From a virus, in IMG/VR virus record IMGVR_UViG_3300021425_000158, positions 1-26,495 of that record: a DNA stretch of 26,495 nt; one strand, written 5' to 3'. Below are positions 3,001 to 25,973 of this stretch, one piece after another (positions within the stretch are counted from its first letter, which is position 1; each line of letters begins with the position of its first letter). The translations under genes were made by a program, and so were the position numbers. The notes under the pieces are model-generated. The model was not told the DNA's origin. It searched no databases and was given only the letters and a program-made list of their open reading frames with translations.

Positions 3001-6000
3001 ACTGATAAACCAGTAGATGGGTCATAAGTTGCGGCAGTAGGTGTAAATTGTTTTCCTTTATTTTCAAGGATAGATAAAATTTCATCGTAGCTTGCATCAA
3101 GTCTTGAAGAAGCCTCGTATGAATCTCCATCTATTAATTCGTTTGTCTGATCTTTTAATCTGCGATATGCTTCAACTGTTTCGTTATTTTGATTTTCCAT
3201 AACAGTTTTAGCAGTTGCCATGTAATATGCACGACCTGCAGTAACAGAGTTATAGTTAGTATCAAATAACATATCGTTCTTAACAGCAGGTAAGATATAA
3301 TCTGAAACATCTCGACGACAAGCTGCTGAATCATATGCATAGAATTCGTCGTTGTTCTCAATCCAATCAATTAGCTCATCTTTAATAAATTCAGAGTTAT
3401 TTTGTATCTGATTTCTAGCTGCGGTATAAGGAACAGAAGTATCTTGCCATATAATCGGGTTGATGTTCTCTTCACCGTACTCTAAGACGTTTAGAAGTTC
3501 CCCAAATGATGTTTCAACGCGTTCGTTGATTTCATTATTACCTGATACAAATATTTCTTTTGTTCTATCTCTTAAGTATTCTAATGCACCTTTTGTTTCT
3601 TCAAGCTGTTCTCCTGGAACAACATAACTGATTGGAGACCTATAAGTAATTCCACCAAGTCTTCCCCAATAGTTAGTATCAAGTGCAATATCATATCCTG
3701 TACCATCAAGGACAATACCTGAATCTCTTAAACATTTATCTGAATCGTATTCTTGATAACCTAATCCACCGTTTACTGAATTGGCTGTTAGGTAACCAAC
3801 CACGTCATCAATAATATCATCACCTGCATAATCAATTGATTGTGCAAATGTAGTATTACCAACAATGGTTGCTGAAGTTGATTTTGGAGCAAAGAAACTG
3901 GTAGTACCTTTTGCTCTCATTGATATATCACCGAACTGAGTACCTGAGTTGTTCAATGTCATTTGACCACCGTTCAATGCATAGAATGCACAACGAACGA
4001 AGATTGACAATGAACCAATACCGTTAACACCAGCACCGTCTCGAGCAACATATCCTAAACCGTTTTGAGTACGAGGTGTGAAACCAAAACATAATACGTA
4101 TGTATATAGTGAATCGGTATCAAGTACTCTTCTATCTGCAAGTACACAACCTCCACCACGACCTACCGCTCTGTTAGGGAAGTCGTCAATACCAATACTT
4201 TCAACAACACCTACACCACCAGATTCTGAAGTTACTGTATCACCTACAGCAAATCCTACACCGTTCTTAAGGTTACGAACTCTAATCTTACGTTGTGTAT
4301 TAACATCTCCAGGTGTTATACCTTTTAGTGCATCTAATGAATCATCCCAAGATAAGTAACCAACTGCACCAGATGAGAATACAACTTCATCATCAAGTTT
4401 CCATAAACTATCTGCTGGGTTTGCGTTATTACCTGTCATACCAACTGCTAAGGTAAATTCTCTACCTAAGTCAGCAAGAGTACCTTTTGAGTTATAAGGA
4501 TTAAGAGGTGGTTCAACATCTTGTCTTAAGAAGTTTGATAACTGAGTACTATCTCTAAGATATGGAGATCTTAATAGTTTAGCACCTGGTCGATATGCAA
4601 TCGCAAATCCACCTTCTGGGAAATCAAAGTTATCAACTTGGAAGTTTTGGTAACCAAATCCTTGAACGTAACAACCTGAACCTACAAGAATACCGTTATT
4701 GTTTTCGTATCCTTTTTCAAGTTCAATTACAGTTGCATACTGACCTGCGGTTGAAGTACAGGAACAATCATCAGGTAACTGCAGATTACCTTTTGTATAA
4801 TAAGTTCCTGGTCCAACCGAAATATGAACAGCATTATTAATTGCGTTACGATTGAGTTCACCACCTGCTTTTTCTAAACAAAGCTCAAATGCTTTTTCTA
4901 ATGTTCTAACAGGTTGTAATTGAGTACCTGGGTTATCGTCGTCACCTGAACCTGCGTCAACGTGTACTTTAAGTGCCTGAGCAGTTTTCTTCGATACTTC
5001 ATCGAATAATTGTCCAAAGTTAATTTGTTCTGTAGCACCTGTCTTTTCGTTACGGATTGCGAAATAACTTTCATCATCCATTGGAGGCTCAAATTCATTA
5101 TTGAGTTCCAAGTCGAAGTCAACAAGTTTGGATTTATTAATTGTACCGCCGTCAAAGACCGAACCTGAAACAGTACCATTCTCAAAACTTGAATTATTTG
5201 AAGATAAGCCATCGGCAGATGAACTTCTGATTGTAATATCAGTTGCTACAACATTGTCCATTGTACCTTGGAAACTTGAATTCGCAAGTGTACCGTTAGA
5301 GAACAATGATTGGTCAATTGTTGAATTTGTAAGGGTTACATTATTACCTGTTCCGTCGTTAAATTCAGAACTTGTAATGACAATGTTATTTGCTGTAGAG
5401 TCTTCAATAACACCGTCTGAAAAATTAGAATTAATAATTGTGGCATTATCAATATCACCATCAGTGTATGTTGAATTGGTGATGTCAGTACCTTCCATTG
5501 TACCACGAAGAATATCAGTATCTTCAATGTTACCATTTTGGAATAGTGAAGCATCAAGAGTTACATTGTTTCCTGTACTATCAAGGATAGAAGAATTTGT
5601 AATAACAACATTGTTAGCAGTTCCGTCATTAAACTCAGAACTTGTTATGATTGTGTTATTTACTGTTGAGTCTGTAATCGCAACATTGTTTGCTGTTGAA
5701 TCTGTAATCGCAACATTGTTAGCAGTACCGTCGTTAAATTGAGACGATGTAATAAGGAAGTTATTTGCTGTGCCATCTAAAAGAGTAGTATTACTAAAGA
5801 TGTTGTTATTACCGCTGCCATCATTAAATGCAGAATTTGTAATTACAATATTATTAGCAGTAGAATCTTCAATTGTACCTAAGTCAAACGAAGACGATGT
5901 GATTGCGATATTATTAGCAGTAGAATCAAAGATTTCAGTATCTGTGATTGTACCTCTTAAGAAATCGGTATCTTCAATGGACGAGTTATCAATGTCAACA

Positions 6001-6215
6001 TTATCGAGGCGTGAATCAGACATAACCACACCGGAGATTGTTCCCCCAGTGATTTTAATTCTTGAAAAGATTTCGTATTGAATTGCTTCAACTAATTCTT
6101 TTCGAGTAATATTACTCGTGCCATCGTCACCTTGGACAAGGTTGACAATAACGAACAGATCTTCCGTCCTGGTATTGGCACCGGTAATCGGAGGTAATTC
6201 TGAAATTTTTGCCAT
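1..6215 (-). CDS. Giant repeat-rich virion structural protein (fibre/spike-like), 3' end outside window
   Basis: The reading frame opens at ATG 6215-6213 (N terminus MAKISELPPITGAN) and has no stop before base 1, giving at least 2071 residues. The start follows AAAAGGAAAAGAG, a good ribosome-binding site, and a TATAAATA element. Visible domains in order: a short N-terminal head; an array of five-residue repeats (about residues 55-320); a pectate-lyase-type beta-helix entry with a D-A-G-S-G-D-D-D-N-P-G-T motif near residue 415 and a beta-rich stretch to about 800; then alternating modules. Five modules carry a Cys-x-Arg-Asp motif (Cys828, 966, 1207, 1865, 2007), and about six are ~100-residue beta modules with Y-D-P-x-T-G and H-T-F-V-S signatures. 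No enzyme motif is seen. The family resembles giant structural proteins of marine T4-like phages; the role as a long fibre or spike is inferred from its architecture and its position after the baseplate genes. Confidence 0.85.
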   Translation of the reverse strand, partial: MAKISELPPITGANTRTEDLFVIVNLVQGDDGTSNITRKELVEAIQYEIFSRIKITGGTISGVVMSDSRLDNVDIDNSSIEDTDFLRGTITDTEIFDSTANNIAITSSSFDLGTIEDSTANNIVITNSAFNDGSGNNNIFSNTTLLDGTANNFLITSSQFNDGTANNVAITDSTANNVAITDSTVNNTIITSSEFNDGTANNVVITNSSILDSTGNNVTLDASLFQNGNIEDTDILRGTMEGTDITNSTYTDGDIDNATIINSNFSDGVIEDSTANNIVITSSEFNDGTGNNVTLTNSTIDQSLFSNGTLANSSFQGTMDNVVATDITIRSSSADGLSSNNSSFENGTVSGSVFDGGTINKSKLVDFDLELNNEFEPPMDDESYFAIRNEKTGATEQINFGQLFDEVSKKTAQALKVHVDAGSGDDDNPGTQLQPVRTLEKAFELCLEKAGGELNRNAINNAVHISVGPGTYYTKGNLQLPDDCSCTSTAGQYATVIELEKGYENNNGILVGSGCYVQGFGYQNFQVDNFDFPEGGFAIAYRPGAKLLRSPYLRDSTQLSNFLRQDVEPPLNPYNSKGTLADLGREFTLAVGMTGNNANPADSLWKLDDEVVFSSGAVGYLSWDDSLDALKGITPGDVNTQRKIRVRNLKNGVGFAVGDTVTSESGGVGVVESIGIDDFPNRAVGRGGGCVLADRRVLDTDSLYTYVLCFGFTPRTQNGLGYVARDGAGVNGIGSLSIFVRCAFYALNGGQMTLNNSGTQFGDISMRAKGTTSFFAPKSTSATIVGNTTFAQSIDYAGDDIIDDVVGYLTANSVNGGLGYQEYDSDKCLRDSGIVLDGTGYDIALDTNYWGRLGGITYRSPISYVVPGEQLEETKGALEYLRDRTKEIFVSGNNEINERVETSFGELLNVLEYGEENINPIIWQDTSVPYTAARNQIQNNSEFIKDELIDWIENNDEFYAYDSAACRRDVSDYILPAVKNDMLFDTNYNSVTAGRAYYMATAKTVMENQNNETVEAYRRLKDQTNELIDGDSYEASSRLDASYDEILSILENKGKQFTPTAATYDPSTGLSVITLGSGHGLTVGRKILLKTGGLIFTCDRDNNVSRTGYPRASDPAAGTPIEVIGANATKITINVGKSDIIDTHNFVEALPNAISILGSAITWSDSATIPADKRNARKQLQSNRQFLQDLVLGYIDTTYFRYNSDKCRRDIESYILPAVERDILTGSNYNAIQTGIAYRSGTTLADNVINEQLVETTGAINELKTRVNTDEIGAQFTPTDATYDPETGRFEATIGSHGLQPGDYVRFLEDGITFSCDTGSGPTNDAVPNPGHPFYNHPCPVHSVTTNTIVCYVGTGGSNAHTFVSALTNAISHVIGISDNASEHRSDEAFDKIIGILNSSGKTYTPSNATYDPVTGLSVITVGSHDLQVGDEVLLAPDSLTFTCATDGNATQHTYPTTTITSFTPTTASYDPVTGEFTADIGTHKLRIGDEIEFATRGITFSCELDGNSTNHPVPEEHHPFYKKKVKLTSVNGNVIGCNVGAVANGGGAHTFVSAITGAIKGERQHPAYKKPVVVAATTSTTFTVNVGTSTDTSVHSFVSATADSVKTAKYVSTYTPYDATYDAATGVFVATIGKHNLQAGDMVMIKPNSVVFTCTLDGNVTEHAAPQAHHPAYKTPVRLSSVTADTITMNIGTGTGGAHTFVRAEVGAIDADALYFPNPASYVKHYTPTTATYDPTTGISVITIPGHDLTTNDYIEFAPYSFTYTCAQDSNATEHSYPRKGDSNYNQPMAITNVAGNDITVQLAASSGGTHTFVSVEKDAVSKVTYNSQGQYAREQLQTNKDFLAKEISSYLDSQYFVFNGEKCSRDSGFILDAVRRDVATGGTWNSQFMGLGYRTGSVGANKVINDQLVETVAAINFLKGKIAADPNVTGVALTRANTQFDKIIDIMQNGPGNVGTKVYGSAAALSNDHNQAGNQLLLNRAFIIAEVTAYIAVNYPSLSYSVADCERDTGYLVDGLIQDVKFGGNTCSVNFARLYFENANSVLPADQKEPTYKTWEHIADVCWNIVRDI
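735..3057 (-). repeat. Six ~100-residue beta modules in giant structural gene
   Basis: Each unit starts with a T-P-T-x-A-T-Y-D-P-x-T-G-like signature, continues with G-x-H-x-L-x-x-G-D and a T-F-T/S-C-x-x-D-G-N motif, then H-P-x-Y-x-x-P-V, and ends in a V-G plus H-T-F-V-S-A segment. Approximate limits of the units are 2740-3057, 2100-2399, 1400-2013 (split), 1540-1840 (inside the split unit), 1075-1385 and 735-1050. A Cys-x-Arg-Asp module lies between the first two units. The copies are diverged, so the expansion is old. Modules of this kind are common in giant structural proteins of marine phages; their function is unknown to me. Confidence 0.75.
5253..6050 (-). repeat. Pentapeptide-like repeat array inside giant structural gene
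   Basis: About 50 consecutive five-residue units run in one register, for example NNVAI TDSTA, then NNVVI TNSSI, with I/V/L/F or A at the last place and N/D/S/T/G elsewhere. At DNA level this is a 15-base periodicity. After about residue 320 the register slips by one and the pattern fades by residue 366. Such repeats normally fold as a right-handed quadrilateral beta-helix, so this section is probably a stiff rod. The repeat is seen directly in the translation; the fold is inferred. Confidence 0.8.
5661..5720 (-). repeat. 30-base tandem duplication (two copies, 28/30 identical)
   Basis: Bases 5661-5690 and 5691-5720 are adjacent copies differing at two positions, sharing an identical 20-base core (tctgtaatcgcaacattgtt). 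Each copy encodes two pentapeptide units (about T-D-S-T-A/V-N-N-V-A-I), so gain or loss of a copy keeps the frame and lengthens or shortens the predicted rod by two units. Confidence 0.85.
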
Positions 6216-13202: not shown

Positions 13203-15167
13203 TTAAAATTCCAATACGAACTTGAATTCTTCTCTTGAGAGGTCTGTTCTTGCTAACGGGAAGAAGTCCTCCATGAAGTACACTTCGCCTGTTCTTTGTA
13301 TATAATCTGAATAGACAACATTATCTGCTATAGGATTATTTATTGTGATTCTCTGTCCAGTATTCGAGGTAATTGCTAAATTAGGATTAAATGATGTATC
13401 ACCATTACCTATATTGCTGTCATTCCTATATGGACCGATGTATTCTGCTAAATAAACTGTATTTGCATTTTCATCAATCTCATGTATTTGTGCTTCAAAT
13501 ATAATTTCATTATCAACATTAACTTGTGTGATTGTGCTATTTGCATTTAAGCTAGCATAATCATCGGTTGTGATTGCGATACGATTATCAAATACATCAG
13601 GCACGGAAGCAGTATTTGCTTGACCGCTTCTCCATGTAGCCACATCTTCCATATTTTTAAATTGAGGGGATCTTACAATACCGATTGCACCGTATGTATT
13701 TACATCACCAATCTTTGTGTTATCTTCTGCTGTGATATATCCATACATTGAAAAATGTTTACATCTAAATTCATCAATTAAATTATACGCATGACCACCT
13801 TTCGGCTCAATAACTGGTCTTATCGTTGCTCTTACATCAGCTGAAAATTGATTTTCTGGATTATAATCAACTAACGGGTCAACTACTGTCGCAACTGCAT
13901 TATTATAACCTTGACCTTTATTTAATAGTACTACTTTATTAATGTTATTTTTATCAATCTCAGGAATTGCTACTGCTCCAAAACCATCACCTTTAATATC
14001 TATTCTAGGAAAGATTTTTACATTAGCATTTTGTAATGCACCTGAAACAATAAAGTCAGTAACTGCTTCCCATCTTCCGCCTGAAGCATATGCCTCAAAT
14101 CCAGTTCCATCAACATTCGTTGACAAGTCAGGATTTGTTTTTAAAGCAAATGAATCAGCATCAATTAAATCAACATAATAAGTAGGTGTTCCTGTACCTT
14201 CATTATAATTTAATTCTGTCATACCTACTACATCTCTAAACGTAATAGGTTGATTGTCTACAAGATTATGGTCGGTTGATGTAATAACAACCGGTGAAGC
14301 TTGCGTTGCACCTTCAACATTTCCTCTTCTAGGATTTGCTAATTCTCCACCTACATATATTGTCACTTCTCCTGCAGAAGTATATTTATAGTAAAGAATC
14401 TTAAATAAATTTGTTACGCTTGAACTTGCGTTAGTTACATATAAACTTTGTCCTGTATAAAAATCATCAACAGAAGACCAATCAGCTTCAGTAGGATCTA
14501 TTGTTAATTCAACAGTACCATGAGTTGTGACTCCACCTGTTCTTCCTCGAACATAAGCAACTCTACCATTCTTTTCTTCGTATCCGTTATTTACATCAGC
14601 ATTCGTAACTTGTATTTCTGATATCCCACCGCCGTATACCTCAGCTGGTTCAATAATTGCTGTTGGGTCTATTGGTATATAACCTAAAGCATTATAAGCC
14701 TCGAATTGTATTGTAGTGAGACGATACATATACTTCCAGACGTATCCGTCGGCAGTTTCGTATATTTGATTTAAATTAGCAGCATCAAACGTAGGAGGTG
14801 AATCTGCTCCACTATTTTCATTATTGTTTAAACATTTATAAACTCGATAATCATCGGTATCATTATCGTTAGGACCAACTACTGCGTAAAAATTTGTTCC
14901 GTCTAAATCAATTGTATCATCGTACTCAGTATATACTGTTCCTCTTTGCCAAGGATAATACTTAATCATAAAGTTAATATCAGCAGGGGCAATCTTTTTA
15001 GCAAATAAAGTCTTTTCTAAAAACTCATTTTGTGAAACAGCAGAATCGACTGGGCTTATTCCACCGATGCTAGAAACAAACATATAATAGTCATCATTTG
15101 CTTTGATATCAGCAATGAATAACTTATTTACGTCTTGATTAAAATTGTTAGTTAAAATTTCTGGCAT
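13203..15167 (-). CDS. 8: Baseplate wedge protein, gp8-like
   Basis: A 654-residue protein. The N-terminal third carries the traits I associate with T4 gp8 relatives: M-I-K-Y-Y-P-W, F-Y-A-V-V-G, R-V-Y-K-C-L-N-N and A-D-G-Y-V-W-K-Y-M-Y. It is about twice the length of T4 gp8 (334 residues); the extra sequence, from roughly residue 190, is beta-rich and probably an inserted or appended domain. In T4, gp8 forms a dimer in each baseplate wedge with gp10, gp7, gp6, gp25 and gp53. The gene follows the subtilase gene by 45 bases that hold an AATAAATA late-promoter-like element. Its own ribosome-binding site (GCGGAA) is weak. The gp8 assignment rests on motifs plus gene order. Confidence 0.75.
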   Translation of the reverse strand: MPEILTNNFNQDVNKLFIADIKANDDYYMFVSSIGGISPVDSAVSQNEFLEKTLFAKKIAPADINFMIKYYPWQRGTVYTEYDDTIDLDGTNFYAVVGPNDNDTDDYRVYKCLNNNENSGADSPPTFDAANLNQIYETADGYVWKYMYRLTTIQFEAYNALGYIPIDPTAIIEPAEVYGGGISEIQVTNADVNNGYEEKNGRVAYVRGRTGGVTTHGTVELTIDPTEADWSSVDDFYTGQSLYVTNASSSVTNLFKILYYKYTSAGEVTIYVGGELANPRRGNVEGATQASPVVITSTDHNLVDNQPITFRDVVGMTELNYNEGTGTPTYYVDLIDADSFALKTNPDLSTNVDGTGFEAYASGGRWEAVTDFIVSGALQNANVKIFPRIDIKGDGFGAVAIPEIDKNNINKVVLLNKGQGYNNAVATVVDPLVDYNPENQFSADVRATIRPVIEPKGGHAYNLIDEFRCKHFSMYGYITAEDNTKIGDVNTYGAIGIVRSPQFKNMEDVATWRSGQANTASVPDVFDNRIAITTDDYASLNANSTITQVNVDNEIIFEAQIHEIDENANTVYLAEYIGPYRNDSNIGNGDTSFNPNLAITSNTGQRITINNPIADNVVYSDYIQRTGEVYFMEDFFPLARTDLSREEFKFVLEF

Positions 15168-15212: not shown

Positions 15213-16904
15213 TTAACCCCTTGCCCTTATTCTTGGCCGAGGATATGTTCGTCCTGAAGTAGGTCTTGCTTTTGCATTTAATTTTGGAAAACTCATTCCT
15301 GTTTCAGGTCGTTGATTTACCCATCTTAATATCAAATTGGCAGCACCTTGTAAACTTTCAAAATCTAAAGTACTATCTGCACCTGTGTCATACATTGCAT
15401 TATTTGTTCCATTTGCTTGAAGCCATGCTAACGCTTCTGCTTGAGTCATATTTGGATTACTTTCTGCAAGTAATGCAAGTACACCCGTAACCTGTGGTGC
15501 TGCCATACTTGTTCCGCTTTTCTTTTCTTGCCAATATGCTGAATCTCTCGAATCTTGAAAAGCTCCTGAGGATCCTGGTATAGCACTAACAATTCCATAA
15601 CCTGCTGCATGAATATTACATGCATTACCACAATTTGAAAAACTTCCTTTACGATCGTTTTTTGCTATTCCTAAAGCTCCACATACAATGGCATCACTAT
15701 CACTCATACCGTTTCTTGATATTGTTCTGTGAGAATAATCAGATTCAGCGTATTGGTCACCACCTGAATCCCTCCAATAAACTACATTATCGTGATCTGT
15801 ACCAGATTTTGTATACTTTTGGTAATCATTACCTGATCCCACTACAAATATAATACCATCATTTTTTGCGTCCTCAGCATCGGCCGCGTCTGATGTTTTG
15901 TAAAAAGGTATATACCAATTACCATTGGCGGCAACTACGATACCTCTTGCTTCTAATTCTGCATCGGTTAAATCTCTACCGTCATCACCCCAAGTATCAA
16001 GAGTAACTCCGCGATATCTAAACGCTCCAACGCCAACTGTGCCTACTGGGGCGAAAAATGTTGAACCCTCCTTTCCTCTTCTAAAAGCATAGCTGTGATT
16101 AGAGATCGTTGGGTTTCTTCTGCCTGTCTCAGGATTAATTGATTTATTATTATGCCATTGGCGAATATAATCCCAATAAGTTGTTGTGTCTAATCCATTG
16201 TTTCCATGATTTTGTCCAAAAGGTTGTATATTATATATGTTTGCATCTCTTGCCCACCCTTGTGTATTTCCTGCCACAATACCAGCAACGTGAACTCCGT
16301 GTTCTTCTCCGTCATCGGAGTAATCATAATTTCCGTTTGAGCCCAATCCTAAAGCAGACGTAAGAGAGAACCAATTAAAATGTTGAACTCTCGTTCCACC
16401 TGTACCGTCTGAATTTACAGCAAACTCTGGGTGATTCATTACTGTTGTATTAATTACACTATCAACAATTAGTACATCAACATTTTTTCCTGATGCGGTA
16501 ATTGTATTTGTTCCTGAAGAAGCAGTATTAGTTCCGTCTGAACCCCATTCACCACTTAAAGCATTGTCTCCGATAATATGACGATATAACCCCCAGTTTA
16601 AATCGTTGGATGATGGGACAAAGTTGTCCCTATCGAAGTTTCCCGAAATATCGTACCCATCATATTTACCAATGGCTGATTCTGCATTCTCTTTTGACTC
16701 AACATCCCATACTCTCGGATCTTCTTTTAGTTGTAATACTTCTTCAGCGGTTAACATATAATGAGTGTTACGACTGATTGGTCTTCTTAACTGCAAGTCA
16801 ACTGCTCTATCAGGAATGTATAAGTCACCTCCTGGGGTTTCCATATCATTATAGAAATCTTCCAGGTCTTCTCTATTATGAAGAGTGACAATATATTCCT
16901 TCAT
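15213..16904 (-). CDS. Subtilisin-family serine protease (S8)
   Basis: A 563-residue subtilase. Residues 1-about 75 look like an I9-type inhibitory propeptide (K-E-Y-I-V-T-L at the start, E-V-L-Q-L-K-E-D-P-R-V-W-D-V-E at its end). The catalytic set is complete: Asp148 in V-D-V-L-I-V-D-S-V-I, His202 in E-H-G-V-H-V-A-G-I, oxyanion Asn359 in V-G-S-G-N-D, and Ser466 in G-T-S-M-A-A-P. There is no signal peptide, so it acts inside the infected cell or as part of the virion. The start lies four bases after the stop of the cupredoxin gene, with an AGAGG ribosome-binding site inside that gene's last codons. Position among wedge genes suggests a role in processing tail proteins or in digesting host surface proteins; both are inference. 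Confidence 0.9.
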   Translation of the reverse strand: MKEYIVTLHNREDLEDFYNDMETPGGDLYIPDRAVDLQLRRPISRNTHYMLTAEEVLQLKEDPRVWDVESKENAESAIGKYDGYDISGNFDRDNFVPSSNDLNWGLYRHIIGDNALSGEWGSDGTNTASSGTNTITASGKNVDVLIVDSVINTTVMNHPEFAVNSDGTGGTRVQHFNWFSLTSALGLGSNGNYDYSDDGEEHGVHVAGIVAGNTQGWARDANIYNIQPFGQNHGNNGLDTTTYWDYIRQWHNNKSINPETGRRNPTISNHSYAFRRGKEGSTFFAPVGTVGVGAFRYRGVTLDTWGDDGRDLTDAELEARGIVVAANGNWYIPFYKTSDAADAEDAKNDGIIFVVGSGNDYQKYTKSGTDHDNVVYWRDSGGDQYAESDYSHRTISRNGMSDSDAIVCGALGIAKNDRKGSFSNCGNACNIHAAGYGIVSAIPGSSGAFQDSRDSAYWQEKKSGTSMAAPQVTGVLALLAESNPNMTQAEALAWLQANGTNNAMYDTGADSTLDFESLQGAANLILRWVNQRPETGMSFPKLNAKARPTSGRTYPRPRIRARG

Positions 16905-16908
16905 TTAA

Positions 16909-18798
16909 TTAAGCCTCTAATTGTAGAATTTCTACAGCTACTGTAATTGATTGTGTACTACCACTTTTGTTTCTTACTTTAACAGGTATGTTTGTTGTTG
17001 GTGTCGATTCTAAATTATAACCAATTGTTCCTGGAGATAACTTTACAGTTTGTGCACCTGTTGTAATTACTTCAGCAATAACACCTGCATCTGGTGCAGG
17101 GTCTGTTGTTTCTGCTCTTGAGTTATCTGCTGTTCTAGAACTGTTGTCTGTGTAAAGAGTTACCCAAGCCGCAGCTGATGTTGTGATTGTATATAATGCG
17201 TATCCTTTATACCCAGTAATATCAATATCTGTTGATACTCCATCAGCAATTGATGTTGTAGCCTGAGAAGGAGATGTACGAGATGGTAAACTTCCACCGC
17301 CACCGCCGCCTGCAGCTGCCTCAACAACAATAGTTCCTGTCATATTTGAGTGGGCTTGACATACGTATTTGTAATTTCCAGAAATACTTGCTGGTATTTT
17401 CCAGAATAAAGCGCCGCCCATTCCTGCGTTTGCGTTTGAACCTGAATAATAGTTACTAGAATCTAAAGCAACCAATCCTTCGTTGTAATCAGTACCGCCT
17501 GAATCTTGAATTACAAATGGGTGAGTAGCACCACCTGCATCTGTTAAATCAAATCCAACTGTCGTTCCTGCTTTAACATAAATTGTTGGGTTATCAGTTG
17601 TTCCGTATTGGTCAAAACGATATGAAGTAGAACCGTTATGTGTAACCTTTAGTACGGTAGCAGCATTTAAGAAGCTGTTTTCAAATAATGCTTTATCTAC
17701 ATTGTTTGTTGGTTGTTGGTCTATATCTCCATAATTTGGAGTGAATGATACGTTTCTCCATGTGGAATCATTTGGGAAATAACTTAAAATATCTCCACCT
17801 GATGGGCTTGTAATTGTAGTATCAGTAATATCAGTCATAGCAACTGAACCGCCACCACCGCCACCGGTTTGGTCTGTTACCCAAGCATAATCACTACCAT
17901 TCCAAGATAGGATTTGTCCACTTGAAGCTCCACTTGTATTTAGATGAGTATCGACATCAGAGTTGGTATAAGATCCACCACCTCCGCCGCCAGTTTGGTC
18001 GGCAACCCAAGCAAAGTCAGAACCGTCCCAAGATAAGATTTGATTTGTTTGTGCACTACTTACATTAAGGTGAGCACTTACATCGTTATCAGAATAAGAA
18101 CCGCCTCCTGCCTGAGATATCCAAGCATAGTCAGAACCGTTCCAAGATAAGATTTCATTTGACGATGCTGAACTTGTATTTAAATGATTGTCTACATCAG
18201 AAGTTTGAAACAATGCAGGCAATGCAGCCCATTGATAATCTGAACCACTCCATTGTAATACTTCGTTAGATTGAGCTGAACTTACGTTTAAATGTCCATC
18301 AACATCATTGTTAGCATAAGAAGCTCCGCCGCTTCCGCCTGTCATTTCAACCCAACTATAACTTCCGTTTGCGCTTGTACCAAGTACATAACCATCGGTT
18401 TCACTATTTAATATATTGGCCGAATATACAAATGTGTTGAGAGGGTCTGTGTAATTAGTAATTGCTCCGCCTGAAGTATCAGAGAGTAATTTTCTCCAAG
18501 ATCCATGAGCGTAATATAAGGATCCTGTGTCGTGTGCATGTCCGATTGAACCATGATAGGTACTTGGACTAACGGCAAGCAACTCTGCTTCCGTATCGTA
18601 TAAGAATGATATCTTGTTTGGTTTTCCTGTATAATCCAAATTACCGTTAATGTCAAATAAATTGATTGGATTATTTGCATCACCTAATGCAAGATATAAC
18701 TCGTTAAAGTTATCGTTTGTTTTATCGAATGCATTACGTAACGGATCACCTGTCCCGTCATTAGCGGATGCACCGATGTTAATTATTTGCTTGGCCAT
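16909..18798 (-). CDS. Fibre-like structural protein with tandem repeats and a cupredoxin domain
   Basis: A 629-residue protein. Residues 4-37 (I-N-I-G-A-S-A-N-D-G-T-G-D-P, then F-D-K-T-N-D-N-F-N-E-L) match a head segment frequent in marine phage fibre proteins. Residues about 157-316 hold four ~42-residue repeats joined by poly-Gly linkers. Residues about 360-500 form a cupredoxin-like domain with a full type 1 copper set: His426 (T-H-P-F-V-I), then Cys480, His483 and Met486 in Y-V-C-Q-A-H-S-N-M-T-G. The C-x2-H-x2-M loop equals that of amicyanin. After a second poly-Gly linker comes a beta-rich C-terminal domain. AGGAAAG precedes the ATG and a TATAAATA element lies upstream. Copper binding is inferred from ligands; it could be only a structural beta-sandwich. 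Confidence 0.8.
   Translation of the reverse strand: MAKQIINIGASANDGTGDPLRNAFDKTNDNFNELYLALGDANNPINLFDINGNLDYTGKPNKISFLYDTEAELLAVSPSTYHGSIGHAHDTGSLYYAHGSWRKLLSDTSGGAITNYTDPLNTFVYSANILNSETDGYVLGTSANGSYSWVEMTGGSGGASYANNDVDGHLNVSSAQSNEVLQWSGSDYQWAALPALFQTSDVDNHLNTSSASSNEILSWNGSDYAWISQAGGGSYSDNDVSAHLNVSSAQTNQILSWDGSDFAWVADQTGGGGGGSYTNSDVDTHLNTSGASSGQILSWNGSDYAWVTDQTGGGGGGSVAMTDITDTTITSPSGGDILSYFPNDSTWRNVSFTPNYGDIDQQPTNNVDKALFENSFLNAATVLKVTHNGSTSYRFDQYGTTDNPTIYVKAGTTVGFDLTDAGGATHPFVIQDSGGTDYNEGLVALDSSNYYSGSNANAGMGGALFWKIPASISGNYKYVCQAHSNMTGTIVVEAAAGGGGGGSLPSRTSPSQATTSIADGVSTDIDITGYKGYALYTITTSAAAWVTLYTDNSSRTADNSRAETTDPAPDAGVIAEVITTGAQTVKLSPGTIGYNLESTPTTNIPVKVRNKSGSTQSITVAVEILQLEA
17850..18322 (-). 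repeat. Four ~42-residue tandem repeats with poly-Gly linkers
   Basis: Each unit reads about S-Y-x-x-x-D-V-x-x-H-L-N-x-S-x-A-x-S/T-x-x-I/V-L-x-W-x-G-S-D-Y/F-x-W. The third and fourth units end in D-Q-T followed by five or six glycines; the second ends in three glycines. The two D-Q-T-linked copies are the most similar, so they look like the most recent duplication. The units probably form small stacked beta modules along a fibre shaft. Confidence 0.8.
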
Positions 18799-18847: not shown

Positions 18848-21800
18848 TTAATACGTAACATCAAAGTTGTTCTCAAGATAGTTAGTTAACATATTTCTCA
18901 TATCTGGAGATACCGTGTGTCCTACATCGTCATTTAACCAAATTACATCACCGTAATTACTTACCTGACTATTTGCTCCGTATGTATCACGATTTGCCGA
19001 TGAAATATTATACCCAGACCATCCAAAGGCTTGAGCAAATCTCCATGCAGATTCTTCAGCACTTAAAAACTTAACTCCGAATGTTTCTGTGAATTCATCG
19101 TTTCCACCAAACGGAACTACTGTATCTTGTTCACCATTCATAAACAATAGTTTTCTTGGTGTTATTGTTGTTTGTTCTGTTGTATACCCATCATAAGGAC
19201 CCCAATCATCTCCAGTGTATTCATGACTAATTGGGTAATAGAATTTATTGTTTCTATATTGTCCTTCATGCATTTGAGAAATCATACATACAATTGCGTC
19301 TACACCTGTATCATCAATTTCAACGGCAGCTCTCAATGCCATTGCTCCACCATTACTTGTACCAATAATACGAATCTTGGTTGGGTCAACATTATTATAA
19401 GTCTTAAGTGTTGTAATCAATTCTTGTAACATTAATATGTCAGGTCCATTCGACTGTTCATTGGCAATGTTCCAAGAATTTAGATATCCTTGAACACCAA
19501 TTAGAATATGTCCTGGTAAATCATTGGCAAAGTTAGCAACCATTCCTGCACCATTACCACCATTACCGTGTAATAAAATTGCTACAGGGAAAGGTCCAGT
19601 ACCTGCAGATGGCATGCCTACCGTTACATCATAATCATGGAATCCTTGACTCCAATTTCTTGTTTGTGTCAAATCACCAGAGGATCCTGTACTTAATGTC
19701 AATCCACCAGTACCGCCAGGAGCATGATCTGCTGAAACCAATGTACTATCTGAAGTATAATTAGTAATACCTGCATTAAGATCTGTAATCTCGGCAACAT
19801 CAAACGGAGAACCACCACCTTGGTCATTAAACAATCTTAAGAACCTTGGTTTGATTGTTCCACCTGCATATGCTTTAAAGATAAAGTCACCAAATAGTTT
19901 TGAACCTGCTAGGTGAACATTTTCTTTTAATAATTTTTCATATTCTTGTAAAGGAAGAGACGATTTAATTTGGTATGAATATTCTTGGAAGAAGTTACTA
20001 TCTTGTACTCTCATTCCCGAATCATAATACTCTAATTGTGTATTTGCTGTTTGTCCTGGTTGTATTCTATAACCACTTAAGTGAGAATTTTGACCTGCCC
20101 AGTATCCTTCTGTCTTACCTTGTGTTTCGGCTTCAATAATACCATAAGCAATAAAGTCGTTATTAGAAGTTCTTAACTCACCAATACCTGTAGCAAAATC
20201 AATAATTTCATTATCAGGTACTTCGTATTCAACATAACCAAACCCTGAATTTAAAATATTTACTTCTTTTACTTTACCAATTTGGAATTCTGTATCTGCA
20301 TTAATAACAGCATTATCACCAAACTTTTCTGGACTATTATAATCATTTGAAATAACAGCAACATTAAATACGAAACTCGGATTACTTGCCAATACAATAT
20401 TTTCATCAGAATTCAAACCACTATAATTAAATGGAGTAATTTTAATAACACCTGCTGTAGAATTAATAGTTTTTACAACACCAAATACATTACTTGATGT
20501 TCCTTTAATTCTGTCACCAATATCAAAACTACCTGCATCGGCCGCATCAACAAATTTAATAAGCTGATCTTTTCTATCTAAGTTTTTAATTAATGAATCT
20601 TGTGCAATCGCAAACACATCAAAATTATAATCAGCACCAGGATTGATATTATTAAACCCTTGAATACGACCAATTGTTAAATCTTGAATATCAAACGCTT
20701 GGTTAAGTGGCGTTGATAAATTGACTGGTGAAGCAGTACCTGACATAGAAGCAGTTGCTTCATAATCAGCAGCATTAAGAACTGTTGTTAAGTGTGGTGT
20801 TATTACGTCGGTAATAACAGATGCAATTGATGTATCAGTTAATCCTGAAACAATTACATCGTCTGAATTATTTGTGTCAGGATATAAAAGACCAGGAGAC
20901 GATGCATTAACAGCAGATAGACTATTACCAGGTTGTACTAAGTCAATTACTAGTTCATTAGAACCTCTATTCGTTGACACAATACTATTTGGTGTAAGTC
21001 CTGTTGACCCATCTGGAGTTTTAACACCAATGGCAGAAATATTTTGTCCTACAACAGTTACTGACCTACCGTTATTATCAGTTAAAGTTTCACCGATAAT
21101 AAATTCTTGATTAAATCCATCTTCACTATTATTTAAAATAATTGCTTGGTCAGAAACAATTAATCGAGTGTTATCTATTGTATAACCATAACCGCCGTCT
21201 TCTAACTCATAAGTAATCTCACCTGAAATTTCATCAGTAACATCGGTGACAATTGCTTTACCTGCATACCCATCTTTTTGTAATACATCAAAGATTTCAC
21301 CAACTTGTCTTCCTGCTGCGTTTCTTAAGGCACCTTTACCTTTTCTTTCAACAACTCTAAATTTTGAAAGTGATCCATTTGTTTTACCAAAAGAAACAAC
21401 CTCTCCGTTAATATTACAAAGAATGTCTTCGTACTTTTTAAATGAACCTTGAATTCCATCAAGATACATCACAGGAGTTTTAACACCATTTAATATAAAG
21501 AAGTTAATTGACCTAACTGAAGCCTTTGCTTTTGTAATACTTCCTTCTATGTTACGAGCTAACAAATCAAAGTAACTATATTCTTTGTCACTTTTTGATA
21601 AGAAGAAATTATTATTTGGAAACATTTGTAAGTATACACCTTGCTTCCAATCTGAATCTGAAACCTTCATCATTTTAGATGCAGGGTATATAATTTCAAT
21701 ATCAAACTCTTGATAGAAAATAGCAAAGAATAATTCTATACCACGGGCAGTACCTTTTGACCTATATAAGTCAAGGATATTTTTAATAATGAATTTAATA

Positions 21801-22054
21801 ATATCAGTCTTGAGTGGAAGGTCAGCAAGAAACTTTTTCTTAAAGAATATAATCATATTCTCTAATGTAGAATCTACATCTCTTGTTTCAAATAATCTTC
21901 TTGACTGATAGATATGTTGGTCTTCTTGAGTTTCAGACCATTTATAATAATCTTCTACTAATTGAACAAGCTCAGGTCCATCTTCCCTATAAATCGCAGG
22001 GAATTGCGTTTTTATGAAAAGCGATATATTTTTTTCGATTTCACCCTGAGGCAT
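18848..22054 (-). CDS. gp7-position baseplate wedge protein with fused C-terminal esterase-like domain
   Basis: A 1068-residue protein. Residues 1-about 150 (F-P-A-I-Y-R-E-D-G-P, L-Y-R-S-K-G-T-A-R-G, F-Y-Q-E-F) match the N-terminal region of marine T4-like wedge proteins placed between gp6 and gp8. Residues 150-740 are beta-rich. A Gly/Ser/Thr linker (about 741-805) leads to an alpha/beta-hydrolase of the PHB-depolymerase/feruloyl-esterase type. It shows an oxyanion H-G-N-G-G at 829-833, nucleophile Ser900 in G-T-S-N-G-G, Asp977 in G-E-Q-D-T-V-V-P and His1046 in V-G-H-T-V, a complete triad in the normal order. T4 gp7 (1032 residues) has no such domain to my knowledge. The gp7 identity rests mainly on synteny. 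The hydrolase probably faces outward and may trim acyl or ester groups of the host surface; substrate unknown. Confidence 0.75.
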   Translation of the reverse strand: MPQGEIEKNISLFIKTQFPAIYREDGPELVQLVEDYYKWSETQEDQHIYQSRRLFETRDVDSTLENMIIFFKKKFLADLPLKTDIIKFIIKNILDLYRSKGTARGIELFFAIFYQEFDIEIIYPASKMMKVSDSDWKQGVYLQMFPNNNFFLSKSDKEYSYFDLLARNIEGSITKAKASVRSINFFILNGVKTPVMYLDGIQGSFKKYEDILCNINGEVVSFGKTNGSLSKFRVVERKGKGALRNAAGRQVGEIFDVLQKDGYAGKAIVTDVTDEISGEITYELEDGGYGYTIDNTRLIVSDQAIILNNSEDGFNQEFIIGETLTDNNGRSVTVVGQNISAIGVKTPDGSTGLTPNSIVSTNRGSNELVIDLVQPGNSLSAVNASSPGLLYPDTNNSDDVIVSGLTDTSIASVITDVITPHLTTVLNAADYEATASMSGTASPVNLSTPLNQAFDIQDLTIGRIQGFNNINPGADYNFDVFAIAQDSLIKNLDRKDQLIKFVDAADAGSFDIGDRIKGTSSNVFGVVKTINSTAGVIKITPFNYSGLNSDENIVLASNPSFVFNVAVISNDYNSPEKFGDNAVINADTEFQIGKVKEVNILNSGFGYVEYEVPDNEIIDFATGIGELRTSNNDFIAYGIIEAETQGKTEGYWAGQNSHLSGYRIQPGQTANTQLEYYDSGMRVQDSNFFQEYSYQIKSSLPLQEYEKLLKENVHLAGSKLFGDFIFKAYAGGTIKPRFLRLFNDQGGGSPFDVAEITDLNAGITNYTSDSTLVSADHAPGGTGGLTLSTGSSGDLTQTRNWSQGFHDYDVTVGMPSAGTGPFPVAILLHGNGGNGAGMVANFANDLPGHILIGVQGYLNSWNIANEQSNGPDILMLQELITTLKTYNNVDPTKIRIIGTSNGGAMALRAAVEIDDTGVDAIVCMISQMHEGQYRNNKFYYPISHEYTGDDWGPYDGYTTEQTTITPRKLLFMNGEQDTVVPFGGNDEFTETFGVKFLSAEESAWRFAQAFGWSGYNISSANRDTYGANSQVSNYGDVIWLNDDVGHTVSPDMRNMLTNYLENNFDVTY

Positions 22055-22069
22055 TATTCTTCTCTCTTA

Positions 22070-23998
22070 TTAATAACTTGAGCCGCTTCCACCACTCGAA
22101 GTGTTGGTTGTCGTATTAGGAGGATTCGTTGCTGATTGAGTTGCGACAGGAGTTTGGAATTCTTCCAAGTCCATTACAACTTTAACATCTGTATCTCTTA
22201 ATATGAATACACGACCTTGTGGTGCTTTAACATCGTTGTCTATTGTTTTTGCCATCACTTTAATTGCTGAACCCGTATATGATTCCACTTTAAAGTTTGT
22301 TAATTTAACTTCACCCTTTTCGTAATCAACTGTACCTGCGGTTGGATTTAAAATTTGTGGGTTAGTAACTTCATCAGTAATAATCATAATATTACCATTA
22401 CCATCATCTTGGAAGAATACACAAGTACCGTCAATGTCGAACGGAGAAGACTTAATCGCAGGCTTATAACTTGTAAATCCATTTGCTGCCTTATAAGGAT
22501 ATGGCTTAACGAGTTTGGTTTCAAATCTAAATGTTGGGTTTGTGGCAAAATTAACTGGTGGAGAATAATCAATAATTGGAGCAATTGAAATTTCACTACT
22601 TAAAATACCAGTATCCAAATTATCAATTGCACTTGATAGTTTTGACGATCTTAATGTCTTATCAAATCCTTCAAGATTATCATCAGAATATTTTTGTATT
22701 TCAGCTCGTACCAATGTTTCAAGTTGGTCTGCATTCTTTTCTGTATTCTTTCTGCTGTAATTTACAATCACCGTCATATCAGCATATACGAATTCTGTTT
22801 GTTTAAAGATAGGCTCAATACCTAATGGAGCACGTTCTCTTAAGTAAGCAATATATGAATTAGATAATGTTGAAGAAATGATTTGTGTATCGTCATTTAA
22901 ATAAACACTAATCGCAACTCTTCCGTATTGAGGTGGGTCAAGCTGTTCACCACCATAAGCAGAGACCGCAGAAATTTCAGGGAATGCCTGTTGTAATAAT
23001 ACTTCGTAATCTTTTGTTGTGACTGCTCTTTCTTGAACTTGTAATGCTTTAGGAGCAAAGTAACGAATGCTTTCCATTGATTCTCTTTCAGCACCACCTG
23101 CTGCAGCAGAAATTGTTCTACAAGTAATTGTTCCACCTTCAACAAAACTTGCACTGAAGTCTGCAGTTGAGCCTGCTCCGTTAGGTTCTGCACCTGAACA
23201 AATTCTATATCTTACTCTTACATCCTCAAATTCTTCAGGTTGTAAACCAAACTGATTCTTACCAAAATAAATTGAATAACGATCATCAAGATAAGGTTCT
23301 AAATAAAATACTTTATCTGTAGGTCTTACTCCGTAAATAGTATTGGCTCTTGTAAATACATTTGCGTCATCAGTTGCTTCAGCATCAACAAACACAACAA
23401 TGGAATCCGTATCCACTTCATTGTTTGTTAAATAAACTCTTAATACTCCATCAGCATCAACAATAAATCCTTCTCTTTGGAAACTCTGTAGCATTTCACC
23501 TTCATAAACATCAATGCTATCAGCAACAAATGTTCCAGGAGGATAAGTTGTTCCGTCGTTTGGATTTGTACCTACAACACGTCGAGCAGTATATACTTCA
23601 TCTGTTACGAAAGAATAACTCTCACCTTGATATGTTACACCAAATTCTGAATACCTTGGAATTGTAATTGTTGAGTCAGTAATGTCAGGAGCAACGATTT
23701 GTACTTGAATTGTTGCCTTTGCTGATTTACGAGATCTTGGAATATAATTTAATTCTTTAGCATGAGAAACGATTGAGTTCTTGAGGACGGCAGAGTCAAG
23801 AAACATTTCGTTAAGTGCCATATTTGTATAGAAGTTATTTTGATAACTATTAAAAGCAAGAACGTCCAAAAGGACACTCATATTAGAACCTTCAAAGTTA
23901 TAATCTTTAAACTGAGTTTGTGTTTGTAAATAAGTTCTTAACTGATCCTTAACGGAATCAAAGTCAAGTTCTGTAATTGGGGTCTTCGGATTTGCCAT
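22070..23998 (-). CDS. 6: Baseplate wedge subunit gp6
   Basis: A 642-residue protein, close to T4 gp6 (660 residues). The N-terminal region is typical of the gp6/baseplate J family: I-T-E-L-D-F-D-S-V, Y-N-F-E-G-S-N-M-S-V-L-L-D-V-L-A, N-S-Y-Q-N-N-F-Y-T-N-M-A-L-N-E-M-F-L-D-S and a K-E-L-N-Y-I-P-R-S segment. A middle T-T-K-D-Y-E-V-L motif (about 330-340) is also shared by the family. The C terminus ends in a short Ser/Thr/Gly/Asn-rich tail from about residue 620. gp6 rings hold the wedges together around the hub and drive the sheath trigger. The gene begins two bases after the gp25 stop. Confidence 0.92.
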   Translation of the reverse strand: MANPKTPITELDFDSVKDQLRTYLQTQTQFKDYNFEGSNMSVLLDVLAFNSYQNNFYTNMALNEMFLDSAVLKNSIVSHAKELNYIPRSRKSAKATIQVQIVAPDITDSTITIPRYSEFGVTYQGESYSFVTDEVYTARRVVGTNPNDGTTYPPGTFVADSIDVYEGEMLQSFQREGFIVDADGVLRVYLTNNEVDTDSIVVFVDAEATDDANVFTRANTIYGVRPTDKVFYLEPYLDDRYSIYFGKNQFGLQPEEFEDVRVRYRICSGAEPNGAGSTADFSASFVEGGTITCRTISAAAGGAERESMESIRYFAPKALQVQERAVTTKDYEVLLQQAFPEISAVSAYGGEQLDPPQYGRVAISVYLNDDTQIISSTLSNSYIAYLRERAPLGIEPIFKQTEFVYADMTVIVNYSRKNTEKNADQLETLVRAEIQKYSDDNLEGFDKTLRSSKLSSAIDNLDTGILSSEISIAPIIDYSPPVNFATNPTFRFETKLVKPYPYKAANGFTSYKPAIKSSPFDIDGTCVFFQDDGNGNIMIITDEVTNPQILNPTAGTVDYEKGEVKLTNFKVESYTGSAIKVMAKTIDNDVKAPQGRVFILRDTDVKVVMDLEEFQTPVATQSATNPPNTTTNTSSGGSGSSY

Positions 23999-24000
23999 CT

Positions 24001-24420
24001 CTATCTATTCCTTTGTAAAATAACATCCAACTGAATGGGTTGCTGATCATTACGAACATAAAAAGTTATCGTAACAAATACCTGACCGTTGTCAGGATCT
24101 GAACTTACACCAACATTAATTAATTGGGCTCTTGGTTCGTATGTCTGAATTGTAGATATTACTCTGTCTTCTATAAGCTTTAACGTACCAGGTGTCATAT
24201 TCTCAAATAACATTGCTCGAATATTACCGCCAATCCTTGGCTGCATTAATCGTTCACCACGATCCGTTAAAATTAAATTTTTAATTGATTCTTTAACTGC
24301 GTCTTCGTCTTTTAATAAGGCAATGTCTTTTGACACCGGACTTATGCGTAAGTCTTTATGAAAATCAGCATTAAGACTGATTTTCTTTTGTTTTGGTGAA
24401 ACTACATCTACTATTGCCAT
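24001..24420 (-). CDS. 25: Baseplate wedge subunit gp25 (GPW/gp25 family)
   Basis: A 139-residue protein of the family's usual size (T4 gp25 is 132). Key marks are D-I-A-L-L-K-D-E-D-A-V-K-E-S-I-K-N-L, then T-D-R-G-E-R-L-M-Q-P-R-I-G-G with L-F-E-N, and E-D-R-V-I near the centre, followed by the Y-E-P-R-A segment. gp25 contacts gp6 and gp53 in the wedge and nucleates sheath polymerisation. The start overlaps the upstream stop as TAATG, indicating coupled translation; gp6 follows at once. Confidence 0.95.
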   Translation of the reverse strand: MAIVDVVSPKQKKISLNADFHKDLRISPVSKDIALLKDEDAVKESIKNLILTDRGERLMQPRIGGNIRAMLFENMTPGTLKLIEDRVISTIQTYEPRAQLINVGVSSDPDNGQVFVTITFYVRNDQQPIQLDVILQRNR

Positions 24421-25973
24421 TAAATTATTTCTCTTATATCTAAATGAATCTTGTCGTCATATTCTTTAACGTATTTAAATCCATTCTTTAATGCTTGTTC
24501 TATAAACACCGAAGGATTTGGTATATCAGATTTTTTAACATCAACAACCAAACCACTTAAATGTGAATTATCTTCAGGACCGTCGGCTTTCTTATTATAC
24601 GCTTTACTTACCCACCCTTCTGTAATAGTAAGCTTGCCTGTAACGCCTGCCGCTGATTTAGTTCTTACCAAATATACTTTCACATCAAGGTCAACCCTTG
24701 TCCATGCGTATATTCCATCACCTTCTTTTGCATCAAACGAATCACCTTCAACTCCAAACGTTGAATCTGAACCATTAAATACATTACCGCATCTCGGCAA
24801 ATTTTTATATTCTTCCGCCGATATTGGTTTAACATTTTCGATAGGTTTACCATCGTTTGTTATTACATTCCCACCAGGTGAAGTCCATTTGCCTTCTAAT
24901 CTATTTATTACCTCTTGCCTAGTTGTTGGAGAATACCTTATGGCTCCAGCTCGTACTGCTGTTGATTCGTTAACCCTAGAGATCGTTTTAAGACGATCTA
25001 CAATGGTACTATATCTCCTTGTATAATCATCAAGGGGTTTATTTATGTCCCTTATAAGTGCTTCTATGTTACCAGCAAGTGCGCAAACACGTGCAACTAA
25101 GTATTGTATTTCTTCAATACCGGGTGAATTGAATAAACTTACTGCATAATCAATTAATCCTATTACCTTATCTTTAATTCCTTTCTTATTCTCTTCAGTA
25201 AAGAATGCGCACATTTGTTCTCTTGTTGTCATAATGCCTTTTACAACTTTACTATTTACAAATGTTTCTGCTCCCTCGGTAATTTTACTTGGGTCAAAAT
25301 TATCAATAATATCTTGTACTTCTTGGAATACTTTATCTATGACATCTTTAATCTTATCTTTGATTTCTTTAATAAGAGCTCGAATAACACCTTCTTGAAA
25401 TAAGTCTTTTATACCATCGTATGATCTTATTTTATTTACTAGTTCCATTGCATCAGCAATTAAACCTTCAACGGTTCCAATCAAATCAAAGAACGCATCA
25501 ACTGAAGCAAAGAATTGGTCAAACTTATTACAAAATCCACCTAAGATAGAAGTATTAAAATCGTTCTTATAATATGAATCTAAATTTCTTGCTAATCTAA
25601 ATGCATCACCTTCGTTTATAAAACTATCAGGTACATAATTATATCCTTGTAGAAAATCAGCCATTTCTAAATTAGAAATATTGCCTCTTGACCATCTATC
25701 AGCAAGGTCAGGATAACTATCAAGAGAACCAATCTTTTGTCTTAATAAAGTATTTAAATAATCGGTTGCTTGATATATGCCATCTCCGTATTTGTTAATT
25801 GCTCTGCCTAATGGATTTGATTCTGCATCTCGAGCAATACTTTCAGCAACTGATTGAGTTACTGCATCAATTTGTCCAAGTGTATATCTTCCTGCCCCGT
25901 CTATTACACCGGTATTTGAAATGTCTAAAGTATTCTGAACTAACTGATTACTATTGTCTACACAATCCGTCAT
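24420..25973 (-). CDS. Baseplate-associated protein with C-terminal M15-type peptidase motif
   Basis: A 517-residue protein directly upstream of gp25. The N-terminal half is helical and charged (residues about 200-260, rich in K-E-I-K-D-K-I-K-D), with an F-L-Q-G-Y-N-Y-V-P-D segment near 109. The C terminus has the zinc-site pattern of the VanY/M15 DD-peptidases: His471-x2-Gly474-x3-Asp478 (S-H-L-S-G-L-V-V-D-V) and, 39 residues after the first His, His510 in K-I-H-L-D-I-R, like the H-x-D-x-R end of M15_3 proteins. If active it would cut peptidoglycan peptide stems. In T4 the gene 5 hub lysozyme does the wall-breaching work, so this protein may take that task; inference. The Ser two residues before His471 is replaced by Asn469, so activity needs testing. 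The start overlaps the upstream stop (ATGA). Confidence 0.7.
   Translation of the reverse strand: MTDCVDNSNQLVQNTLDISNTGVIDGAGRYTLGQIDAVTQSVAESIARDAESNPLGRAINKYGDGIYQATDYLNTLLRQKIGSLDSYPDLADRWSRGNISNLEMADFLQGYNYVPDSFINEGDAFRLARNLDSYYKNDFNTSILGGFCNKFDQFFASVDAFFDLIGTVEGLIADAMELVNKIRSYDGIKDLFQEGVIRALIKEIKDKIKDVIDKVFQEVQDIIDNFDPSKITEGAETFVNSKVVKGIMTTREQMCAFFTEENKKGIKDKVIGLIDYAVSLFNSPGIEEIQYLVARVCALAGNIEALIRDINKPLDDYTRRYSTIVDRLKTISRVNESTAVRAGAIRYSPTTRQEVINRLEGKWTSPGGNVITNDGKPIENVKPISAEEYKNLPRCGNVFNGSDSTFGVEGDSFDAKEGDGIYAWTRVDLDVKVYLVRTKSAAGVTGKLTITEGWVSKAYNKKADGPEDNSHLSGLVVDVKKSDIPNPSVFIEQALKNGFKYVKEYDDKIHLDIREII

Follow-up and report, generated by a model that had tools for sequence, protein, structure and literature searches.

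Baseplate cluster and the layout of its gp9/gp10-type protein

The window, meaning the whole 26,495-nt stretch analyzed here from a 26.5-kb IMG/VR record of a marine phage, contains a baseplate cluster in the order gp25, gp6, gp7, a gp9/gp10-type gene, a subtilase, and gp8, all on the minus strand. These encode the baseplate wedge proteins gp25 (24001..24420) and gp6 (22070..23998), a gp7-like baseplate wedge protein (18848..22054; phrog_17744), the gp9/gp10-type baseplate protein (16909..18798; PF07880, phrog_677), an S8 subtilase with an intact Asp148, His202, and Ser466 triad (15213..16904; phrog_9158), and a gp8-like baseplate wedge protein (13203..15167; phrog_438). The isolates nearest to gp6 are Sinorhizobium phages (39.6%), while the nearest matches of the subtilase (42%) and of the C-terminal domain of the gp9/gp10-type protein (about 60%) are both to cyanophages, and the host may be non-photosynthetic. 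Cyanophage relatives of the subtilase are 32-42% identical to it, and as a protease inside a baseplate cluster it is possibly virion-borne. Beyond the cluster, the protein at 24420-25973 weakly resembles a family of phage peptidases (phrog_25247, 2.3e-9) and is encoded where phage phiM12 has its M15 peptidase gene. A 2071-aa protein at 3-6215, cut by the window edge, contains a pentapeptide-repeat stretch at residues 262-317.

The ORF at 16909-18798 translates to 629 aa, and we assign its product to the T4 gp9/gp10-type baseplate proteins on the basis of its N-terminus and gene position. PF07880, the T4 gp9/10 N-terminal domain, matches residues 1-44 (18667..18798) with 29.4 bits against a cut-off of 25, and S-CREM1, S-H38, and Melnitz have N-termini 50-60% identical to this one at the corresponding locus. 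The family of baseplate wedge tail fiber protein connectors, phrog_677, matches residues 1-494 (1.3e-37). This N-terminus is common to gp9 and gp10 and cannot separate the two in T4 terms. An earlier note made from the DNA sequence had called the product a phage fiber protein; rather than a simple fiber, it is more precisely a gp9/gp10-type baseplate protein encoded between gp7 and gp8.

The N-terminus is followed by about four copies of a shaft repeat of roughly 40 aa (DVDxHLNxSxAS..ILSWNGSDYAWV; residues about 165-311, 17866..18306), then by the cupredoxin domain (residues about 375-493, 17320..17676), which was recognized by profile, Pfam, and fold, and finally by a Gly-rich linker and a C-terminal beta domain (residues 504-629, 16912..17289; phrog_15343, phrog_9627). 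One shaft-repeat unit shares 85.7% identity over 42 aa with S-SSM7 gp9, and the repeats also match tail proteins of Lentibacter podophages at about 41-46%. Such sharing of repeats with both S-SSM7 gp9 and Lentibacter podophages points to an exchange of modules among marine phages that are not related to each other. The C-terminal beta domain has a 50-61% identical counterpart in cyanophage proteins without a cupredoxin, and its strands are present in a low-confidence model of the full-length protein. We infer the exposure of the predicted copper site rather than reading it from that model, because its quality (pLDDT 48.8) is too poor to place the cupredoxin domain. The window's own subtilase has no cupredoxin, its gp9/gp10-type neighbor carrying the domain instead, and no second cupredoxin was found in the whole 26,495-nt window.

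The cupredoxin domain and its ligands

By sequence and predicted fold, the domain is a member of the cupredoxin superfamily, to which the small blue copper proteins that carry electrons in photosynthesis and respiration belong. A profile built from 54 relatives and searched against 177,635 PDB sequences found almost only copper proteins, among them NirK (3.8e-5), pseudoazurin, plastocyanin, amicyanin, and rusticyanin. The single sequence matches PF13473 and PF00127 below the curated cut-off of each, so Pfam misses the domain by score. An AlphaFold2 model of the domain made with 52 relatives is a beta-sandwich (pLDDT 89.8), and Foldseek returned 136 matches to it at E<=0.001, of which those listed are cupredoxins or multicopper oxidases, including rusticyanin, NirK, amicyanin, and plastocyanin. 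VIA-align superimposed the model on the cupredoxin domain of NirK with a Z of 11.2 (2.4 A over 111 residues) and on the N-terminal (extra) cupredoxin domain of 2dv6 with a Z of 9.6 (2.3 A, 95 residues, 25% identity).

The predicted copper ligands are His426 (17521..17523), which is followed by an invariant Pro427, Cys480 (17359..17361), the sole cysteine of the protein, His483 (17350..17352), and the axial Met486 (17341..17343), all on the minus strand. These residues occur in the order expected for a type 1 copper site. In the model numbering, the first His lies just ahead of strand 72-76, the Cys ends strand 118-124, and the second His and the Met lie in the loop preceding strand 131-137, which are the usual places of these residues in cupredoxins. 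The earlier note had proposed a cupredoxin domain with an intact type 1 ligand set at these four residues and a short C-x2-H-x2-M loop in place of the longer plastocyanin loop; the positions and the loop are borne out by the translation, and the profile, Pfam, and fold results support the domain. The interval it had given, 17341-17730 (residues 357-486), covers all the ligands but begins about 18 residues early and drops the last strand (TGTIVVE). In residue-shuffled proteins of the window the C-x2-H-x2-M loop arises 0.0035 times per window, or 0.0015 times when an upstream His is also required, while the real window has one.

We surveyed homologs with the ligand columns masked, rebuilding the profile and searching all ORFs of the fetched loci, a procedure that avoids circularity. 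All 81 complete unique domains found by this blinded profile keep the H, C, H, and M, although ligand-less members may be under-counted here since the relatives had been collected with unmasked queries; the two further rows were truncated or of a ligand-less type. Loss of the ligands in close relatives, which the earlier note had named beforehand as one observation that would speak against it, did not appear. Together with the shuffling rates, this retention rules out a chance motif.

In our two alignments (A1 and A2), the only invariant columns besides the four ligands and the Pro that follows the first His hold one Tyr and one Thr; this Pro is present in all 83 rows. Across 116 positions only the four ligands and Pro427 have zero entropy, a tally that covered rows with the loop and is to be read beside the blinded count. 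Conservation is low at the interleaved residues 481, 482, 484, 485, and 487, whose ranks are 93-111 of 116. Each of the two synonymous codons occurs at the His and at the Cys positions, in a set of domains whose pairwise identity goes as low as 12%. This codon usage indicates that the residues are conserved, rather than the DNA.

A contrasting case is found in S-SSM5 and syn9, where the gene after gp9 encodes two such domains in tandem. The first bears all the ligands; the second, a weaker match (E about 0.0004-0.0009) located about 100 residues further along, is a sister domain whose Cys-His-Met loop has been lost (L192 residues 572-690 in S-SSM5 and L193 residues 562-680 in syn9). The persistence of this sister shows that the fold tolerates loss of the ligands, and their retention in the other copies argues for a metal function. 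In our reading selection maintains a metal site, most likely of type 1 copper, and we consider binding of copper or another soft metal by the domain to be highly probable.

Distribution among phages and possible roles

At E<=0.01, a query with the single domain matches at least 238 phage records, almost all from marine cyanophages; only four are not Synechococcus, Prochlorococcus, or cyanophage records. The domain, mostly unannotated, occurs in baseplate, tail-fiber, and subtilase proteins, and the gp9 gene records examined have no copper annotation. In a profile search of whole genomes, one to four copies were present in 20 of 26 chosen phages; most of the cyanophages among these had been picked as known carriers, but P-SSM2 and S-TIM5 had not and yet carry the domain. 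The profile search found none in T4, KVP40, Sinorhizobium phage phiM12, the pelagiphages HTVC008M and HTVC010P, or the freshwater cyanophage S-CRM01. The whole genome of S-CREM1 contains no cupredoxin domain either, from which it follows that the domain is not essential to marine cyanophages in general. The earlier note had found such a domain unexpected on a tail. It is indeed surprising there, but with this many phage records and often several copies per virus it is not unique. One ligand-bearing cupredoxin is also encoded by the Methylophilales phage Melnitz (L195, record 108900-111000), whose host is marine and non-photosynthetic.

In BFVD, proteins with the same fold are annotated as proximal tail fiber, tail fiber connector, S8 peptidase, and S74-domain proteins. 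The profile of the subtilase family phrog_9158 includes a C-terminal cupredoxin, and the domain is C-terminal in two relatives of the window's subtilase (L027 and L028) and lies in mid-subtilase, upstream of the Ser motif, in two others (L020:6830-9268 and L017:2050-4488). The pairing of subtilase and cupredoxin is recurrent but not universal. A 505-aa protein at L077:823-2328 has two ligand-bearing cupredoxins (residues about 76-198 and 385-499). In a tree of the domain, the gp9, subtilase, and neighboring-gene copies fall mostly into separate old lineages; many branches are weak and we drew no count of transfers from it.

We propose that the domain is a copper-pinned module for variable host contact, a statement to which, taken as a whole, we give an even chance and which we prefer over electron transfer. 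A cupredoxin with a type 1 ligand set would be built into the baseplate protein between the shaft repeats and the C-terminal beta domain. The apo-protein would be made in the host cell, and copper would enter the virion during assembly, during lysis, or from the surrounding water. Once bound, the metal would link the C-x2-H-x2-M loop with the one that follows the first His and so create a rigid face whose non-ligand residues vary from phage to phage. Exposed on the periphery of the baseplate, this face would contact the host surface, where a subtilase adjoining or fused to the cupredoxin may trim surface proteins. Judging from the conserved site and from the recurrence of the domain in tail proteins of hundreds of marine cyanophages, the virus particles probably carry copper. 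We infer that the metal is copper, that it is held in the virion, that the face meets the host, and that the domain is not mainly an electron carrier. Our preference for host contact comes from the combination of a fixed metal centre with a highly variable frame, which suits variable contacts better than docking to a single partner. The variable residues around the fixed ligands fit adhesion, but could alternatively reflect a mere lack of constraint. The conserved axial Met counts against the host-contact reading, as it exceeds the needs of a purely structural metal site.

That Met leads to the explanation in which the domain is a redox-active blue copper protein, serving in electron transfer or as a sensor of redox state or copper, for instance by telling the baseplate that the host has been reached or by passing electrons to and from a surface protein of the host. 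A redox-tuned type 1 site would require the invariance of all four ligands, axial Met included, and simple metal anchoring would require less. The annotation of T4 gp9 makes it the fiber connector and the trigger for contracting the sheath, so a gp9-type protein could conceivably hold a switch. However, electron carriers usually conserve a docking surface around the exposed His, and here those positions are among the most variable; the domain calls of the window also include no redox partner gene. We think this explanation unlikely, and a redox role of any kind in infection is in our judgment doubtful. Equally tentative is the broader idea that tailed marine phages are copper metalloprotein particles in which a mobile, redox-competent type 1 module, distributed over several baseplate, fiber, and protease proteins of each virion, would provide a redox- or copper-gated step of infection at the host surface. 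A copper or zinc ion might instead act only as a structural rivet that helps an exposed virion domain withstand proteases, light, and seawater and plays no role in contacting the host. Invariant ligands amid free variation would be expected of a rivet, and neighboring subtilases would favor protease-resistant folds. On the other hand, S-SSM5 and syn9 keep the fold in a sister domain that is ligand-less, a rivet has no need of the invariant Met, and many exposed beta domains of phages manage without metal, so that we do not expect this to be the answer.

Two further explanations can largely be set aside. Most isolates carrying the domain infect Synechococcus or Prochlorococcus, which raises the question of whether it is a plastocyanin look-alike that mimics or hijacks photosynthetic electron transport in cyanobacterial hosts. 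Plastocyanin operates in the thylakoid lumen, though, and we know of no route by which a virion protein would enter it. The domain is also carried by the Methylophilales phage, its loop spacing is unlike that of plastocyanin, the neighboring gp6 is closest to Sinorhizobium phages, and the large contigs holding the closest relatives of the window, which are fragments, contain no psbA/psbD family match. Cyanophages moreover have a separate petE (PMC3037559). This explanation is largely refuted already and very improbable. A vestigial cupredoxin, a plain beta-sandwich used for adhesion in which the Cys, His, and Met are leftovers that bind no metal, would be in keeping with the frequent reuse of common folds by phages for adhesion. 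It is hardly credible given the full retention of the four ligands in complete domains despite synonymous codon changes, and in the copy from this family that really is without ligands the loop is gone.

If virions do hold copper, a large share of ocean cyanophages would be metalloparticles, with a bearing on host recognition, phage decay, and the speciation of copper in seawater. Copper in virions, if true, would parallel the "Ferrojan horse" idea put forward for iron.

Relation to known copper proteins and phage tail proteins

The earlier note had described the domain as amicyanin-like. Amicyanin (1aac) does have the cupredoxin fold and the C-x2-H-x2-M spacing, and only the spacing justifies the term. 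Its first ligand is followed by Asn (MPHNVHF) where the phage domain has His-Pro, the distance from the first His to the Cys is 39 residues as opposed to 54, and it is a small electron carrier while the phage domain is part of a predicted virion protein. Overall similarity does not single out amicyanin either, as the profile matches NirK, pseudoazurin, and plastocyanin no less well, and we do not place the domain among the amicyanins. Nor is it a plastocyanin, whose loop is C-x2-H-x4-M. Among the best matches, at 24-25% identity, are the extra cupredoxin of three-domain NirK (2dv6, 6tfd) and the C-terminal domain of 9cck. The short C-x2-H-x2-M loop of the phage domain is shared by 9cck and 6hbe. 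The domains of 2dv6, 6tfd, and 9cck are fused to nitrite reductase, unlike the phage domain.

The gp9-type proteins of S-SSM7, S-RIM8, S-SSM5, P-SSM4, and syn9 share the N-terminal family phrog_677 with the window protein and have a C-terminal cupredoxin with the H and C-x2-H-x2-M ligands, and the shaft repeat of S-SSM7 gp9 is nearly identical to that in the window. In most of these cyanophage proteins the cupredoxin is the extreme C-terminus, whereas the window protein adds the C-terminal beta domain, and identity between the cupredoxins is only about 30-38%. They are annotated as baseplate wedge tail fiber connector, tail pin, or hypothetical, with copper unmentioned. The tail-pin proteins of S-CREM1 and S-H38 occupy the same locus (gp7 - this gene - subtilase - ... 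- gp8) and are 51-53% identical to the window protein at the N-terminus and 50-58% identical in the C-terminal domain, but have no cupredoxin between the two. Its presence here and absence there, at one and the same locus, mark the cupredoxin as a module that was gained or lost between the window phage and S-CREM1/S-H38.

Two scans of 84,980 prokaryote genomes, which detect close relatives only, returned a single weak match of 40 residues. On these scans we reject a recent gain from a cell, and a distant cellular origin is possible. The Anabaena phage A-1(L) tail structure was considered as a solved example and dismissed, as a cupredoxin is unmentioned and its gp9 is the sheath. Our search of the full-text literature, with preprints and subscription journals outside its scope, turned up nothing on cupredoxin domains in structural proteins of phages. 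The fold is known and its setting appears to be new, since no baseplate protein of a tail seems to have been described with a conserved copper site in the literature searched.

Viral nirK is not a mis-annotated version of the domain, as the viral NirK in question is 67-70% identical to bacterial NirK (PMC8115048). Marine phages encode copper proteins as auxiliary metabolic genes, namely the plastocyanin petE and NirK (PMC3037559, PMC8115048). Those are host-like metabolic proteins that are expressed in the cell, in contrast to the domain in the window, which is part of a predicted structural protein.
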